Below, one piece after another: positions 18,089 to 48,158 of a DNA stretch of 64,000 nt (within the stretch, counting starts at the first letter, position 1; each line of letters begins with the position of its first letter). The DNA is from SAR202 cluster bacterium bin90 (GTDB lineage: Bacteria; Chloroflexota; Dehalococcoidia; Lucifugimonadales; JADFKI01), in the NCBI GenBank assembly GCA_002238855.1, contig MPND01000011.1:1-64000 (forward strand), written 5' to 3'. The notes beneath the pieces were generated by a model. That model searched no databases. It was not told the DNA's origin and saw only the letters and a program-made list of their open reading frames with translations. Both the position numbers and the translations under genes were made by a program.

Positions 18089-18328
18089 GTCGTGCTAAGC
18101 GGGGAGATAGCGGTGCCCTGTACTCGCAATCCGCTCTAGCGAGGCTGAACTCCTCTTGGAGGTTTGCCATTCGGAGCCTCTAGCACCGGTTGGTCGGTGT
18201 TGATAGCTGGGTCCTGCGCGGCGGAAAGCCGTGAACCCCGTCAGGTCTGGAAGGAAGCAGCGGTAAGCGGTGTCTTCCGGGTGCCGCAGGGTCGCCTGGC
18301 TTGAGCTGTCACCGTGGCTATGCTCTCG
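18089..18328 (+). ncRNA. ffs: Signal recognition particle RNA (long bacterial form)
   Basis: The invariant apical core is present at about 18235-18268: GTCAGGTCTGGAAGGAAGCAG with the asymmetric loop and GGAA tetraloop region that bind Ffh. The 5' part has the CGTGCTAAGCGGGGAG and GGTGCCCTGTA elements seen in long SRP RNAs with an Alu-like 5' domain. The 5' segment near 18106-18115 can pair with about 18308-18326 (TAGC..GGTG with CACC..GCTA), which sets the approximate ends. Length is about 240 nt. The ends are estimates, the identity of the core is firm. The RNA lies between lepA and a protease gene. Confidence 0.9.
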
Positions 18329-18416
18329 AACGGGAATCGAATAGAGGTGCACGACCTAATTCAATATTTCAGTTGATTTGGTTTTTCGTAGCGGCGACCC
18401 ACAAACGGAGACTCCC

Positions 18417-42898: not shown

Positions 42899-44302
42899 TC
42901 AGGGCTGAAGTCCGGACGGATGCTGCTCATGCCAGTTGGTGAGTGACTGGTACGCCCGCGCCACCGCAAGAATTCGATTCTCGTCGTATGCCCGCCCCAT
43001 AAACTGAATGCCGGTGGGCAGCCCTTCGTCAGAAAATCCGCTTGGTACGCTGATCGCTGGCAGTCCTGCACTGTTTCCCACCGCGCCCATAGTGTCACGC
43101 GCCGTACCTGCCACTACCCCGCGGAAGTCCTGGTCGATTGGCGTTGCCGTAACCGCACGTGTAGGCCCTACCATGGCGTCATAGCCCGCCATCACTTCGT
43201 CCGCGATACGCGCAACCTTCCCTCTTATTCGTAAAGCCCTGATATAGTCCTGCGCCGGAATCATCAGCCGTGCATGCGGATGGTGGCACTCAGGCGCGGT
43301 CAGCCCAGAAACAGCGCCGCTCTCAATGAAATCCTCGAACGCGCTCGCCGATTCCGCATTAAGAATAGTACGAGTAACAGCCTCGTATGGCATTTCGGGA
43401 AACTCTATCTCCTCGATGTCCGCCACAGCCTCCAGTTCTCGCAACGCCTGCTCGAAGTTCGCCGCAACTTCCGCCTGCACTCCTTCTGTAACATCCTTCA
43501 ATACTGCGAGCTTAAATCTACGTCCAACCCAGGCATTTATGTCATAGACATACGGCCTGTCCGTTGTTGACGGGTCATCGGCGTCCCTGCCCGCAATCGC
43601 CTCCAGGACGATACCGCAGTCATCGGCAGTCAGGCAGAGCGGCCCGAGCTTGTCCAGCGTCCACGACAGCACCATCGCACCCTGGCGGCTCACTCGCCCA
43701 TAGGTGGGACGCAACCCCGCCAATCCGCAGTTATTGGCAGGCGACAGAATAGATCCCCAGGTTTCTGAACCTATGGCGAAGGGCACCAGACCCGCCGCAA
43801 CGGATGCCCCTGAGCCGCTCGACGATCCGCCAGACCATGCGTCCTTGCCCCAGGGCGTCATGCCCGGCCCGGTGAAGGACGCGTTGGGTTGCCGGTACCC
43901 CATTCCGCCCGCTATTTCGACCATCGCCAGTTTCGCCGCTAATGGGGCGCCCGCGTCCTCCAGGCTGCGAACCACTGCAGCATCATAGTCGAAGACCTGC
44001 TCACGGAACGGCGCCGCGCCCCAGGTGGTCGGGATGCCGCCGGATGTCGCAAGCAAGTCCTTAGCCCCGTATGGAATGCCGTGCAGAGGACCCTTGTAAT
44101 TCCCCGATGCAATCTCCCCTTCGGCGCGGCGTGCCTGTTCCATGGCCCGCTCGTGCGTAACCGTAACTACGGCGTTGTAACGGGGCCCGATGGTCTCAAG
44201 ACGACCCAGGAATGTCTCGGTGATGTCAACGGGCGAAACCTGACGGGTCCGCACGAGTTCTGCCAGGTCGCGAATTGGCATGAATACGGAGTTCGCCGTC
44301 AT
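42899..44302 (-). CDS. Amidase (GatA/AtzE type, amidase-signature family)
   Basis: The 467 residues contain the amidase-signature Ser-cisSer-Lys triad: Lys in PYGAKDLLAT near residue 80, and the Ser-rich loop SGGSSSGSGASVAAG near 155 with GSETWGSI near 178. An AAGGAGA site precedes the ATG. The enzyme hydrolyses an amide; the substrate is unknown. A 67-residue partner is encoded 45 bases upstream, and such small helical partners are known from AtzE-AtzG and GatA-GatC pairs. Not likely to be GatA of the tRNA amidotransferase because gatB is absent. Confidence 0.9.
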   Translation of the reverse strand: MTANSVFMPIRDLAELVRTRQVSPVDITETFLGRLETIGPRYNAVVTVTHERAMEQARRAEGEIASGNYKGPLHGIPYGAKDLLATSGGIPTTWGAAPFREQVFDYDAAVVRSLEDAGAPLAAKLAMVEIAGGMGYRQPNASFTGPGMTPWGKDAWSGGSSSGSGASVAAGLVPFAIGSETWGSILSPANNCGLAGLRPTYGRVSRQGAMVLSWTLDKLGPLCLTADDCGIVLEAIAGRDADDPSTTDRPYVYDINAWVGRRFKLAVLKDVTEGVQAEVAANFEQALRELEAVADIEEIEFPEMPYEAVTRTILNAESASAFEDFIESGAVSGLTAPECHHPHARLMIPAQDYIRALRIRGKVARIADEVMAGYDAMVGPTRAVTATPIDQDFRGVVAGTARDTMGAVGNSAGLPAISVPSGFSDEGLPTGIQFMGRAYDENRILAVARAYQSLTNWHEQHPSGLQP

Positions 44303-44347: not shown

Positions 44348-44551
44348 TCAGTCTTTGCGATACGGCGGTACACTGAACGGTGAATCACCATGCCCCAGGC
44401 TTACGGCGCGCATGTCATCGGCTGCCTGCACGATTGCCTTCGCAGTTTCCGAAACTTCTTCGAGTTCCTGTTCGTCAAGGCGGTCACCGTACCTCTGTCG
44501 CAGCACAGCCATCATCTGCTCGGCTCGCTCATTTGTCTCGTTTGTCTCCAT
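44348..44551 (-). CDS. Small helical partner of the amidase (AtzG/GatC-like role)
   Basis: The 67-residue acidic protein (METNETNERAEQMM ... PFSVPPYRKD) has two predicted helices and a C-terminal arm ending PPYRKD. It has a good GGAGG ribosome site that lies in the end of the DUF3179 gene and is followed by the amidase. By place and size it should wrap around the amidase as AtzG does with AtzE; sequence similarity to those is not obvious, so the role is inferred from context. Confidence 0.65.
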   Translation of the reverse strand: METNETNERAEQMMAVLRQRYGDRLDEQELEEVSETAKAIVQAADDMRAVSLGHGDSPFSVPPYRKD

Positions 44552-44552
44552 G

Positions 44553-46100
44553 TCAGCCCTCCGTCGCCCCGTATAATAGCGTATCCGGGTAGGTTATGTA
44601 CCAGCCGAACCAGAACGACACATTCGCGGGATGCAGCGGCAAAGTCTGCGCCGGATCGGCGTCTTTCCACAACCTGTCCCGCTCTACATGCCAGACAGCG
44701 CCCTCTTCATCGAGCAGTGTTTCCGGAAGGCTGTTGGGCGCGTCATCCGGAAGGGTGAATTGTATTCCTTCGCTTCGGAACGCCAGCGCGTCCGCGGACA
44801 GGGATGATGCCACTACCACCAAGTCAGTGCCACCCACGCTGTCGTTGACAAGGCGTGATTCCCTCATCGCATCTATGGAGTACGCCTTGAACGCCCCATC
44901 AGCCACTACCCCAAGCACCAGTTGTTTGGGCGCAAGCTGCTCATCCCTGTTCCAAATTGGAAACATCGTCTCCGGGTCTTCGCGATAAGCGAAATAGATG
45001 GCGCGGTGGTCGTCCTCGCGCTCATAGCTTCTCGGAGGGTAATAGCCCGTCTCGCGCGACTGCACCTTGGTATCAGGATGCTCGTCCAGCCACTCGCCCC
45101 ATGTGGTGAGCGCTACCGGGAAGTATTCGAGCTTTATGCCACTGCCTACAAGTTCGCCAACAATCGGCTCGCCCCGGAGCTGGCTCCACAGCGTCTCCGT
45201 CTTGCGGTCGTACATCACCTTGTTGCTGCGATATAGCATTCCGGATGTGCCGAATGTGGTTGGTTCTCCATTGATTTTCGCGGAATACACGATCCCGCTG
45301 TTGCACAACGTTCACCACGCAAGCGAAATCGGTTCGCCTCCCACCGTGTCATTGACCATCTCGTGGCCATTGATTATGCGCAGCGGGTATGCGCGGGTAT
45401 CGCCATTGATGGATACGCCGAAAACGCGCTCATCGTCATCAAGGAAGTCAGCCTCGTCGGGGGTCAGCATTTTCGGGTCGCGGATGTCCGGTATGCCGTC
45501 CGGCAATACGCCACCCCAGACGATTTCCGTCAGATCAACCGTGACTTCGCCATTGCGCGCCGGATACAGGAACGAGGCAAAGCGCGGGTGAAGCTGGGAC
45601 ATGAAGTTTATCTTCCATTCCAGATACCCGGACGGCGGCGGATATTCGTCGCTGTGGTTGCCGAGCCATTCCATCCACCCCTTCCAGTCATCGCCGCCGT
45701 AGCGTTCACCGGTGAGTTCGCCCAGGACGTACGCCGTAGCGTCCCTCGCATTCGCGGTGGACTGGTAGCGCATGGACTCTACCAGCACAGGGACCATAGA
45801 CTTGTCCTTGTTCATCCGGACTTCGTCCAGCGCATCGTATGTGACATTGCTGGTTCGACCAAAGCCCGGAAACACCTTGTACATCGCGTCGTTGGAGTCG
45901 TAGGGTATTGAGGTGGGTTCGGGCGTGGATGTGGCTGCCACTTGCGTCGTTGCCGTTGCGGCAGGCGGCATGGTCGGCGGTGCCATTGTTGGTGGGAGTG
46001 ATGTTGCAGTTGGCGGCGGCGCGGGCTCAGACGCACAGGCGGCTAACACGGTCGCCGAAATAACCAAGACACCAATTGGCAGGTAGCGAAAAAACAGCAT
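44553..46100 (-). CDS. DUF3179 lipoprotein with in-frame UGA, candidate selenoprotein
   Basis: Start ATG 46098-46100 has AGGAGG 8 bases upstream. Residues 1-262 include a lipoprotein signal (TVLAAC), a Pro-Thr linker and the first part of DUF3179 (INGHEMVNDTVGGEPISLAW). At 45312-45314 a TGA follows and the same frame goes on TLCNSGIVYSAKINGE and through the rest of the domain to 44553, 515 residues in all. In this family the motif after the Val-Gly-Gly segment is normally Cys-x-x-Cys; here it reads U263-T-L-C266. A 7-bp hairpin with loop CGUGU begins 13 bases after the UGA. The downstream part has no start with a ribosome site. Most likely a Sec-containing redox lipoprotein outside the membrane; a nonsense mutation is the alternative. 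Confidence 0.78.
45280..45298 (-). promoter_or_regulatory. SECIS-like hairpin of the DUF3179 gene
   Basis: In the mRNA, bases 14-32 after the UGA fold into a 7-bp stem (45292-45298 with 45280-45286, one G-U pair) with loop CGUGU (45287-45291). The loop begins 20 nt after the UGA and has G in its second position. That fits the bacterial SECIS pattern as I know it: 16-37 nt spacing and a G in the first two loop bases. Confidence 0.6.
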
Positions 46101-46197
46101 TAATATGTCCTCCTAACCAATTGGATGCAGACTGCAGGACGGCGGTTCATTCAGAACAGAGCGTTCCGGTGATAATACACTAATGGGAGGTTTCACA
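46101..46197. promoter_or_regulatory. Divergent promoter region of the two UGA-containing genes
   Basis: Only 97 bases separate the two start codons, so both promoters lie here and shared control is likely. Ribosome sites are at 46109-46114 (minus, AGGAGG) and 46185-46190 (plus, GGGAGG). GATAAT at 46171-46176 could be a plus-strand -10 box with TTCATT at 46146-46151 as a loosely spaced -35; this is weak. Confidence 0.45.
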
Positions 46198-46545
46198 GTG
46201 GCAGAAGTCGGATTCTACACATGGGCTCGTTGAAGCACCTGCCGCAAGGTGAAGGCGTCGCTTTCACAAGATGGCGTGGTTCTGAACGAACGGGACTTCT
46301 TCAAGGACAGCTTCACGGAAGCGGAGTTGCGTGAACTGCTCGGAGACACACATCCGGCGGATGTATTCTCCTGGCGCAGCCCATCGGCGCGCAAGCTCGG
46401 GCTGGACAAGGATACAGTATCGCCTGACGAGTTGATCGGCCTGATGGTGGAAGAGCCGCGCCTCATCCGCCGCCCGCTCCTTCAGGTTGATGGGCATCTC
46501 GTTGTCGGCACCGACAAAAAGGCGATGGCGGAGGCGTTCGGCTAG
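46198..46545 (+). CDS. ArsC/Spx-family protein with in-frame UGA, candidate selenoprotein
   Basis: GTG at 46198 follows an ideal GGGAGG by 7 bases. The first 11 residues read VAEVGFYTWAR, the first beta strand of an ArsC/Spx thioredoxin-like fold, then a TGA at 46231-46233, then STCRKVKASL. The family motif Cys-x-x-Cys-Arg-Lys thus becomes U12-S-T-C15-R-K. The rest (VVLNERDFFKDSFT, RRPLLQVDGHLVVG) is typical through to the TAG at 46543, 115 residues in total. Without readthrough the protein would lack its redox centre, and the inner GTG at 46249 has no ribosome site. A 7-bp hairpin with loop CGUCG sits 15-33 bases after the UGA. Probable selenium-dependent thiol reductase. Confidence 0.8.
46249..46267 (+). 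promoter_or_regulatory. SECIS-like hairpin of the ArsC-like gene
   Basis: Stem 46249-46255 with 46261-46267 (7 bp, one G-U pair) and loop CGUCG (46256-46260). The loop starts 22 nt after the UGA and has G in its second position. It has the same stem length, loop length and CGU loop start as the hairpin in the divergent DUF3179 gene. Confidence 0.6.
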
Positions 46546-46556
46546 AGCGTCGTCGC

Positions 46557-48158
46557 TTACGGTCTCACCGCCCGCTTCTCGCGCTGCGCCAGTTTGTGCA
46601 GCATCGGCTGCGCCAGCTTGACGAAAGTGCAGGCAAGGCGGCGCGTCTCGCGCGGGTCTATCAGGTCAACGACATCGCCACGGAAGGCAGCGCGGAATGG
46701 TGAGCGCAGCTTCAGCAGGCGCTCTTCTATCATCGCGCGGTGCGCCTCCGGGTCGGGAGCATTGTCAATTTCGCGGCGATACGCGGCTGCGACTCCACCC
46801 TCGATGGGTATGCCACCCCACTCGCCTGCGGGCCAGCCGAAGCGAAGGTTCAGGCCGTCAGGGTGACCGAGACTGTGCGCGGCATCCGCCGCGACGCCGT
46901 ACGCCTTGCGAACATTGAACTCGATCTTCGGCACCTTCGCTTCGGCGCTTGCAATCAGCGCACGCACACCTCGACGCATCGTTGCGATGCGCTCCGCGTG
47001 CGAGCCAAGCATGAAGCCGGGCATGTCCAGGAATATGACGACCGGCAGGTTGAAGGCATCGCACAGGTCAACGAAGTGCGCGTACTTCTCTGCTGCCCAG
47101 CCATCCATCGCACCCGCGAGACGCATCGGATCGCTGCCGATGATGCCCACGCTGTAACCGTCGAGGCGTGCAAATCCAGTTATAATCGAGCCTGCCCAGT
47201 GCCTCCGCATCTCGAAGAACTCGCCATTGTCCACGACCAGCTTGATAAGCTTTCGCGGATCGTAGCCGCGCCGACGATTCGGCGGGATGATGTTGAGCAG
47301 CTCCTCAGGGCGGCGGCCTGGCGGGTCACCCGTCTCCACGCGAGGCGCTACATCGTTGGTCGTGTTCGGCAGATAGGATATGAAGGTCTTGATCTGCTCG
47401 AAGGCATCCTCTTCAGATTCGGCTTCATTGTCCACCTGCCCGCTCTCGTGGACATGCCGCTTGTACCCGCCCAACTCCTCTTTGTCCATGTCCTCCCCAA
47501 TGGCACGGCGCACGACGGGCGGTCCCGAAGGAAATATCTGGGACTGATCTTTTACCATAACGGTGAAGTGCGACATGAGCGCAAACGCTGCGGGCGCGCC
47601 CGCTACTGAGCCCATGATCCCCGCGGCAACAGGGACCTTCTTCATCAACTCAACGCCCTTCCACCACAGGTCGCCGCCCGGCAAGCCCATGTGCCCGGAT
47701 GCCTCATCGGCTTTCGCGCTATGTCCTACGCCCTCGACAAGCTGTATGTACGGGATGCCGTACTGCGTGGCGAGCGGCTGTGTGAACTGCCGCGAGTGCT
47801 TGCGAACATTGTGCGGACTGCCGCCTGATATGGTGAAGTCGTCGCCACCGATGGCTACCGGACGACCGTCAATCTCCGCGAGTCCCATCACATAAGCGCC
47901 GGGGGTAAACTCGACCATGTTGCCTTCGTCGTCGAACTCGGCAGCGCCCACCATAGGGCCGGCCTCAAGGAAACTACCGGGGTCCACCATCTTCTCGATT
48001 CGCTCGCGCACGGTGTGGCGACCGCCCGCATGCTGGCGTTTGACGCGCTCTGGACCACCTAACTCGGCGGCGAGACCGCGCACGTAGTTCATATCGTCTA
48101 TTGCCTGCTCCCAGGGCATTCCCGGCTTCCACATATCTCGGTCTTTGTCGATTGGCAT
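46557..48158 (-). CDS. Acyl-CoA carboxylase, carboxyltransferase subunit
   Basis: The 533 residues form one carboxyltransferase (MmdA/PccB-type) polypeptide with both crotonase-fold halves: N-half GRHTVRERIEKMVDPGSF near 46-63 and GHSAKADEASGH near 145, and C-half VVIFLDMPGFMLGSHAE near 375 with KAYGVAADAA. A GGGAGG site precedes the ATG. It moves CO2 from carboxybiotin to an acyl-CoA. It is the last gene of the unit bioY - CoA transferase - BCCP - biotin carboxylase - carboxyltransferase. Which acyl-CoA is used cannot be told. Confidence 0.92.
   Translation of the reverse strand: MPIDKDRDMWKPGMPWEQAIDDMNYVRGLAAELGGPERVKRQHAGGRHTVRERIEKMVDPGSFLEAGPMVGAAEFDDEGNMVEFTPGAYVMGLAEIDGRPVAIGGDDFTISGGSPHNVRKHSRQFTQPLATQYGIPYIQLVEGVGHSAKADEASGHMGLPGGDLWWKGVELMKKVPVAAGIMGSVAGAPAAFALMSHFTVMVKDQSQIFPSGPPVVRRAIGEDMDKEELGGYKRHVHESGQVDNEAESEEDAFEQIKTFISYLPNTTNDVAPRVETGDPPGRRPEELLNIIPPNRRRGYDPRKLIKLVVDNGEFFEMRRHWAGSIITGFARLDGYSVGIIGSDPMRLAGAMDGWAAEKYAHFVDLCDAFNLPVVIFLDMPGFMLGSHAERIATMRRGVRALIASAEAKVPKIEFNVRKAYGVAADAAHSLGHPDGLNLRFGWPAGEWGGIPIEGGVAAAYRREIDNAPDPEAHRAMIEERLLKLRSPFRAAFRGDVVDLIDPRETRRLACTFVKLAQPMLHKLAQREKRAVRP

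Follow-up and report, generated by a model that had tools for sequence, protein, structure and literature searches.

Comparative analysis of a divergent gene pair in SAR202 cluster bacterium bin90 points to two genuine, separate selenocysteine (Sec) redox proteins, the genes of which probably lie side by side through a rearrangement at the level of the genus and not as a conserved joint system; we put the probability of this reading at about 0.8. The pair lies in the first 64,000 nucleotides of contig MPND01000011.1 (the whole stretch analysed, here called the window) and consists of a DUF3179 gene and an ArsC/Spx-like gene, each with one in-frame UGA that, as far as the sequence tells, is a Sec codon. 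The features concerned are as follows.

42899..44302, minus strand: amidase gene (PF01425, 278 bits), a neighbour of DUF3179 in the genus and the sister genus
44354..44551, minus strand: small gene of 66 aa downstream of DUF3179, no Pfam match
44553..46100, minus strand: DUF3179 gene (PF11376), 515 codons plus stop, one in-frame UGA
45280..45298, minus strand: SECIS hairpin of the DUF3179 gene, 7 bp, loop CGTGT
45312..45314, minus strand: in-frame UGA of the DUF3179 gene, predicted Sec in UTLC (AWUTLCNSG)
46101..46197, no strand: divergent intergenic region, 97 bases (alignment of four genus sequences)
46186..46190, plus strand: ribosome-binding site GGAGG of the ArsC-like gene, kept in 4/4 aligned genus sequences
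46198..46545, plus strand: ArsC/Spx-like gene (PF03960), GTG start, one in-frame UGA
46231..46233, plus strand: in-frame UGA of the ArsC-like gene, predicted Sec in USTC (RUSTCRK)
46249..46267, plus strand: SECIS hairpin of the ArsC-like gene, 7 bp, loop CGTCG

A preliminary description of this locus had reported two divergent genes starting 97 bases apart, a UGA at the first Cys of a CxxC in both (AWUTLC and RUSTC), and 7-bp stems with five-base loops beginning with CGU at a spacing of 20 to 22 nt, and all of these observations were borne out. An ATG at 46183 overlaps the GGAGG, and three relatives start at the codon aligned with 46198, which makes the gap 97 bases (46101-46197). From UGA to loop there are 20 nt in the DUF3179 gene (CGTGT) and 22 nt in the ArsC-like gene (CGTCG). 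Both family assignments lie above the gathering scores of the profiles: PF11376 gave 264.1 bits against the DUF3179 product (gathering score 27), and PF03960 gave 62.2 bits against the ArsC-like product (gathering score 24).

Across the order, the UGA stands at one codon in each family. All 30 of the closest DUF3179 loci, the window counted, have exactly one UGA, always in UTLC; one of them, in the sister genus G062, has a TAG besides. DUF3179 matches (E <= 1e-30, paralogues counted) were found in 152 of 250 genomes of the order, and 14 rows lower in that listing have no internal stop, so that the UGA is not universal among the wider DUF3179 relatives. Among 32 DUF3179 homologues, 30 have Cys aligned to the Sec; P0104 has Asp, and P0103 has Trp, perhaps from a UGA that its source translated as Trp. 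A second DUF3179 gene of the same genome (L009; G000 C61:31050-31988) has CPLC and no UGA. For the ArsC-like family, 76 of 81 loci (80 fetched plus the window; counted by reading) have the UGA, and Cys replaces Sec in the other five (L123, L137, L140, L150, and L157). Matches to this protein (E <= 1e-5) occur in 175 of the 250 genomes, 10 rows of the listing having no internal stop, and a motif search over ArsC-like loci, which misses some of them (e.g., L202), gave 99 distinct UGA sequences and 10 Cys sequences. Most of the named relatives are MAGs of the SAR202 cluster, Dehalococcoidia, or Chloroflexi. An ArsC-like protein of the Sec form, with a similar hairpin, was also seen in records whose titles give Syntrophaceae, Smithellaceae, Dehalococcoidaceae, Deltaproteobacteria, and, once, Flavobacteriales (L190, L193, L195, L200, L203, L205, L207, L212, L215, and L216). 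A plasmid search returned only distant ArsC relatives (18 records, all below 60% identity).

The hairpins carry much of the case for Sec. As set out in the portion available to us, the bacterial SECIS model of PMC13188914 has an apical loop of 3-9 nt, a stem of 4-16 bp, a G as the first or second loop base, a distance of 16-37 nt from UGA to loop, and a free energy at or below -7.5 kcal/mol; both hairpins fit it in loop size, stem length, loop G, and spacing. The free energy of the ArsC-like hairpin is -8.3 kcal/mol, and an 8-bp variant with loop GTC scores best there (22-23 nt range); the DUF3179 hairpin alone, at -7.3 kcal/mol, is just short of the limit, and a 46-nt stretch reaches -9.9. 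DUF3179 loops are CGTGT, CGGGT, or AGTGT in 30/30 loci, and G is first or second in all 96 listed of 99 ArsC-like loops and second in 95. Covariation had been proposed beforehand as a check, and both stems do covary beyond shuffles, the shuffle figures not being probabilities because shuffles ignore relatedness. In the ArsC-like stem (99 distinct sequences), 96.4% of cells are paired and 97 are double-change cells, against at most 88.0% and 47 in 500 shuffles. The DUF3179 stem (30 sequences) has 90.5% pairing and 15 double-change cells in three pairs (shuffle mean, 4.8); none of 500 shuffles reached the observed pairing or double changes, sliding the stem by 1-3 columns left at most 62.4% paired, and the outermost pair is a C-C mismatch in 17/30. 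This full set supersedes a smaller, partial one of 25 sequences that missed true loci (pairing of 88.6%; 23 double changes, with at most 14 in shuffles).

Purifying selection acts on the codons that follow each UGA. In eight comparisons within the genus, dN past the UGA was about 4 to 13 times below dS: for DUF3179, dN was 0.15-0.19 and dS 1.3-1.6 (dN/dS of about 0.10-0.14), and for the ArsC-like gene, dN was 0.10-0.12 and dS 0.75-1.6 (dN/dS of about 0.08-0.15). Selection on DUF3179 was no weaker after the UGA than before it in 4/4 comparisons. The genome also holds the means to decode Sec, namely a tRNA-Sec (63.8 bits, above the cut-off, and found by ARAGORN as well), SelB, SelA (547 bits), and SelD (393 bits, with a UGA of its own), with the reservation that it is a MAG with 6.3% contamination, so that any one Sec gene might come from another organism; all four genus mates tested have SelA and SelD too. 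The selD gene (L312; G000 C49:4997-5920) is itself a predicted selenoprotein gene and lies on another contig of this genome; in its hairpin, an 8-bp stem carries the 5-nt loop GGTTC, or alternatively a 9-bp stem carries GTT. In a test of 25 genomes, 22 had both SelA and SelD above the cut-offs, and three had neither. The three negative genomes (G244 with L140, G245 with L123, and G150 with L150) had been chosen for their Cys-type ArsC-like protein, and the lack of SelA and SelD in them fits a loss of Sec decoding. G072 and G073 have Cys in the ArsC-like protein yet retain SelA and SelD, so the link between the Cys form and lost machinery runs one way.

These results bear on two readings in which neither gene would be a selenoprotein gene. 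That these are decaying genes, with UGAs that come from ordinary nonsense mutation or from sequencing error, is hardly credible: nothing apart from the UGAs themselves speaks for decay, and the single codon kept across the order, the purifying selection past it, the covarying hairpins, and the Sec machinery all speak against it. The preliminary argument that two chance nonsense mutations would not produce this pattern thus holds, the UGA being fixed in 30/30 and 76/81 loci, with covariation and low dN/dS. Genome-wide reassignment of UGA, for example to Trp, would leave neither gene special and would agree with the Trp found in one of the 32 DUF3179 homologues (P0103), but it is extremely improbable, since the SelA and SelB frames of this genome have no internal stop, the DUF3179 gene itself terminates in UGA, and the residue aligned to Sec is Cys in 30/32 DUF3179 homologues and in three Cys-type ArsC-like members.

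The two products appear to belong to different compartments. The preliminary description had an exported DUF3179 protein and a cytoplasmic ArsC-like protein, and prediction agrees on both: the DUF3179 product is a predicted exported lipoprotein with an LAAC lipobox near its N terminus (read by eye), and the ArsC-like protein is predicted to be cytoplasmic. In the structure model of the DUF3179 product, the first 63 residues have low confidence and are followed by a helical part and then two beta domains. Rieske-type proteins are weak structural matches of both modelled beta domains (model residues 232-334 and 400-515); profile comparison gave no backing for this likeness. A long DUF3179 lipoprotein subfamily (about 515 aa, with UTLC and the helical N-terminal part) occurs across the order, and we did not see it described as a subfamily in the part of the literature covered.

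For the ArsC-like protein, the closest solved structures are Spx (E of 1e-22, by sequence match), and the best NCBIfam match is TIGR01617 (Spx/MgsR), at 62.8 against a curated cut-off of 75.05. It scores 38.2 against TIGR00014 (arsenate reductase, glutaredoxin type; curated cut-off, 106.05) and differs from the known seleno-ArsC model ArsC_rel_Se_1 (NF041106), against which it reaches only 28 of the curated 85. We take cd03032 to be the Spx-like ArsC group. In the accessible part of PMC2398784, Arsenate reductase 2 (cd03032, UxxC) has 42 sequences in the Global Ocean Sampling selenoproteome table; it shares the ArsC type and UxxC with the protein described here, a likeness drawn from its description and not from alignment. 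DUF3179 (UxxC/T) and arsenate reductase-like protein (UxxC) are both listed as selenoproteins in the available parts of PMC9312934 and PMC13188914, and both families are thus already catalogued as UxxC selenoproteins. The DUF3179 (seleno)protein (PF11376) is the same family as ours, and some public records already label its relatives "(seleno)protein."

Within the genus, the pair is stable. All four genus genomes in which the ArsC-like gene was found (that of the window, G056, G057, and G059) have the two genes head to head with both UGAs kept; in G058, the remaining one of five genus genomes searched, neither gene was found. DUF3179 identity among the four is 70-73%, so the pairing is no accident of very recent date. 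The 66-aa gene adjoins DUF3179 in all four and in the sister-genus locus L288. As far as the stretches reach, the whole block is collinear in all four (CoA transferase, biotin carboxylase, carboxyltransferase, ArsC, DUF3179, small gene, and amidase), and the pair is therefore kept no better than its neighbours. The region between the genes varies in length, from 97 bases here to roughly 155, 290, and 330 in three genus mates (by tblastn ends), and what the four sequences conserve is chiefly the ribosome-binding site and the start. A search of 46000-46600 gave no sigma-70-like site, and with conservation of this kind, a shared regulatory element between the genes was rejected. Elsewhere in the window, a bacterial large SRP RNA was found at 18090-18354 (196 bits).

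Outside the genus, the linkage is absent from the loci viewed: the flanks of the ArsC-like gene (up to 6 kb per side, shorter at contig ends) contain the orthologue of this DUF3179 gene in none of 77 non-genus loci. Conserved divergence, proposed beforehand as a check, is thus confined to the 4/4 genus genomes with an ArsC-like gene and is absent from the 77 loci beyond them. Where both genes share a contig, in 16 non-genus genomes, they are 26 kb to 2.5 Mb apart in linear distance, the shortest distances being 26 kb (G206) and 63 kb (G035). In the sister genus G062, DUF3179 keeps the small gene and the amidase (L288), and the ArsC-like gene is on another contig near a homoserine-dehydrogenase-like gene. 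In the loci fetched, frequent neighbours of the ArsC-like gene resemble MutS, MutL, a NuoG-like protein, or homoserine dehydrogenase, not DUF3179 (these neighbours were named by reading). A different DUF3179 paralogue lies downstream of the ArsC-like gene, in convergent orientation, in 5/77 non-genus loci, at about 160 bases (L082), 1.2 kb (L091), 2.2 kb (L086, broken frame), 2.2 kb (L095, a weak match of 62 bits), and about 5 kb (L124); all four with a readable motif are of the Cys type. By a rough hand estimate (about 2.6 copies per 2.7-Mb genome, 11 kb viewed), about one such case is expected by chance, and some of the five may descend from a single arrangement. Five of 77 against an expected one or so leaves a small chance for a functional link between the families.

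The preliminary description had gone further and proposed one co-controlled selenium redox system, with the ArsC-like and DUF3179 proteins in a single pathway, on the strength of the matching hairpins and the shared intergenic region. Neither ground found support. The likeness of the hairpins follows the general bacterial SECIS pattern (PMC13188914, in the part available) and recurs in the unlinked selD, so it is no evidence for a joint system; the intergenic region varies in length and sequence. A joint system would agree with the head-to-head arrangement and both UGAs in 4/4 genus genomes with the ArsC-like gene, with the joint absence from G058, and with the other DUF3179 paralogues near the ArsC-like gene in 5/77 loci, but the collinearity extends to the whole flanking block, the genes are unlinked elsewhere, and the absence from G058 (530 contigs) may come down to one missing contig; we consider a joint system distinctly unlikely. 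Genes that are not neighbours in relatives, together with hairpins lacking covariation, had been named as counting against the proposal, and the outcome was divided: the genes are not neighbours outside the genus, and the hairpins do covary. A related idea, that the ArsC-like protein is a Spx-type redox regulator with a Sec switch that controls the divergent DUF3179 gene, is very unlikely. Besides the nearest structures and the best NCBIfam match, it could draw on Sec or Cys at both CxxC switch positions and Arg at Spx R92 in 24/24 ArsC-like sequences and on Arg at Spx R60 in 16/24, the window among them. The TIGR01617 score, however, is below the cut-off, and the family departs from Spx elsewhere: R47 and M48 have no counterpart in 24/24, K62 is Pro in 23/24, and the position of G52 is Gly in only 2/24 and His in the window. 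In Spx, G52 is required for interaction with the RNA polymerase alpha-CTD (PMC2801614, as far as that source was available). Because G52 is mostly not kept, we infer an enzymatic role for the ArsC-like protein, as a reductase, rather than Spx-type regulation.

If the two genes do encode separate Sec redox proteins, as we prefer to read them, SelA, SelB, SelD, and tRNA-Sec would decode both UGAs, with Sec actually inserted at each, to yield an exported DUF3179 lipoprotein and a cytoplasmic ArsC/Spx-like protein. In each protein, Sec would attack the substrate, the Cys three residues on would resolve the intermediate as an Se-S bond, and a thiol donor would reduce that bond again; the Sec/Cys site of the DUF3179 protein would work outside the membrane. 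Neighbouring selenoprotein genes are known from grdA-grdB, SAO, Tso, and Prx/SelW pairs (PMC13188914 and PMC2398784, in the parts available); unlike those operons, the genes described here are divergent and form no operon, and their linkage was observed in one genus only. The claim that a link between DUF3179 and ArsC-like selenoproteins had not been described agrees with our finding no published coupling of the two in a literature of incomplete coverage; a literature search for SAR202 with selenoprotein found no paper. A two-sided selenium redox relay across the membrane in this genus, pairing the Sec-ArsC/Spx-like protein with the Sec-DUF3179 lipoprotein, is very unlikely; the hint of it is that Sec-ArsC genes lie near DUF3179 paralogues of different subfamilies, divergently in the genus and convergently elsewhere.

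The 120 public ArsC-like homologues listed, out of 640 found and with the window's own among them, measure 89-103 aa and span 75-85% of the query, a pattern consistent with gene callers that begin past the UGA, with loss of the active site. Order-wide selenoprotein genes of these bacteria are thus probably misread in public data, and the covarying hairpins provide a clean SECIS reference set for the lineage. Our results also call for caution with loci of this kind: two adjacent Sec genes with similar hairpins need not be one system, because an unlinked third gene, selD, has the same loop class.
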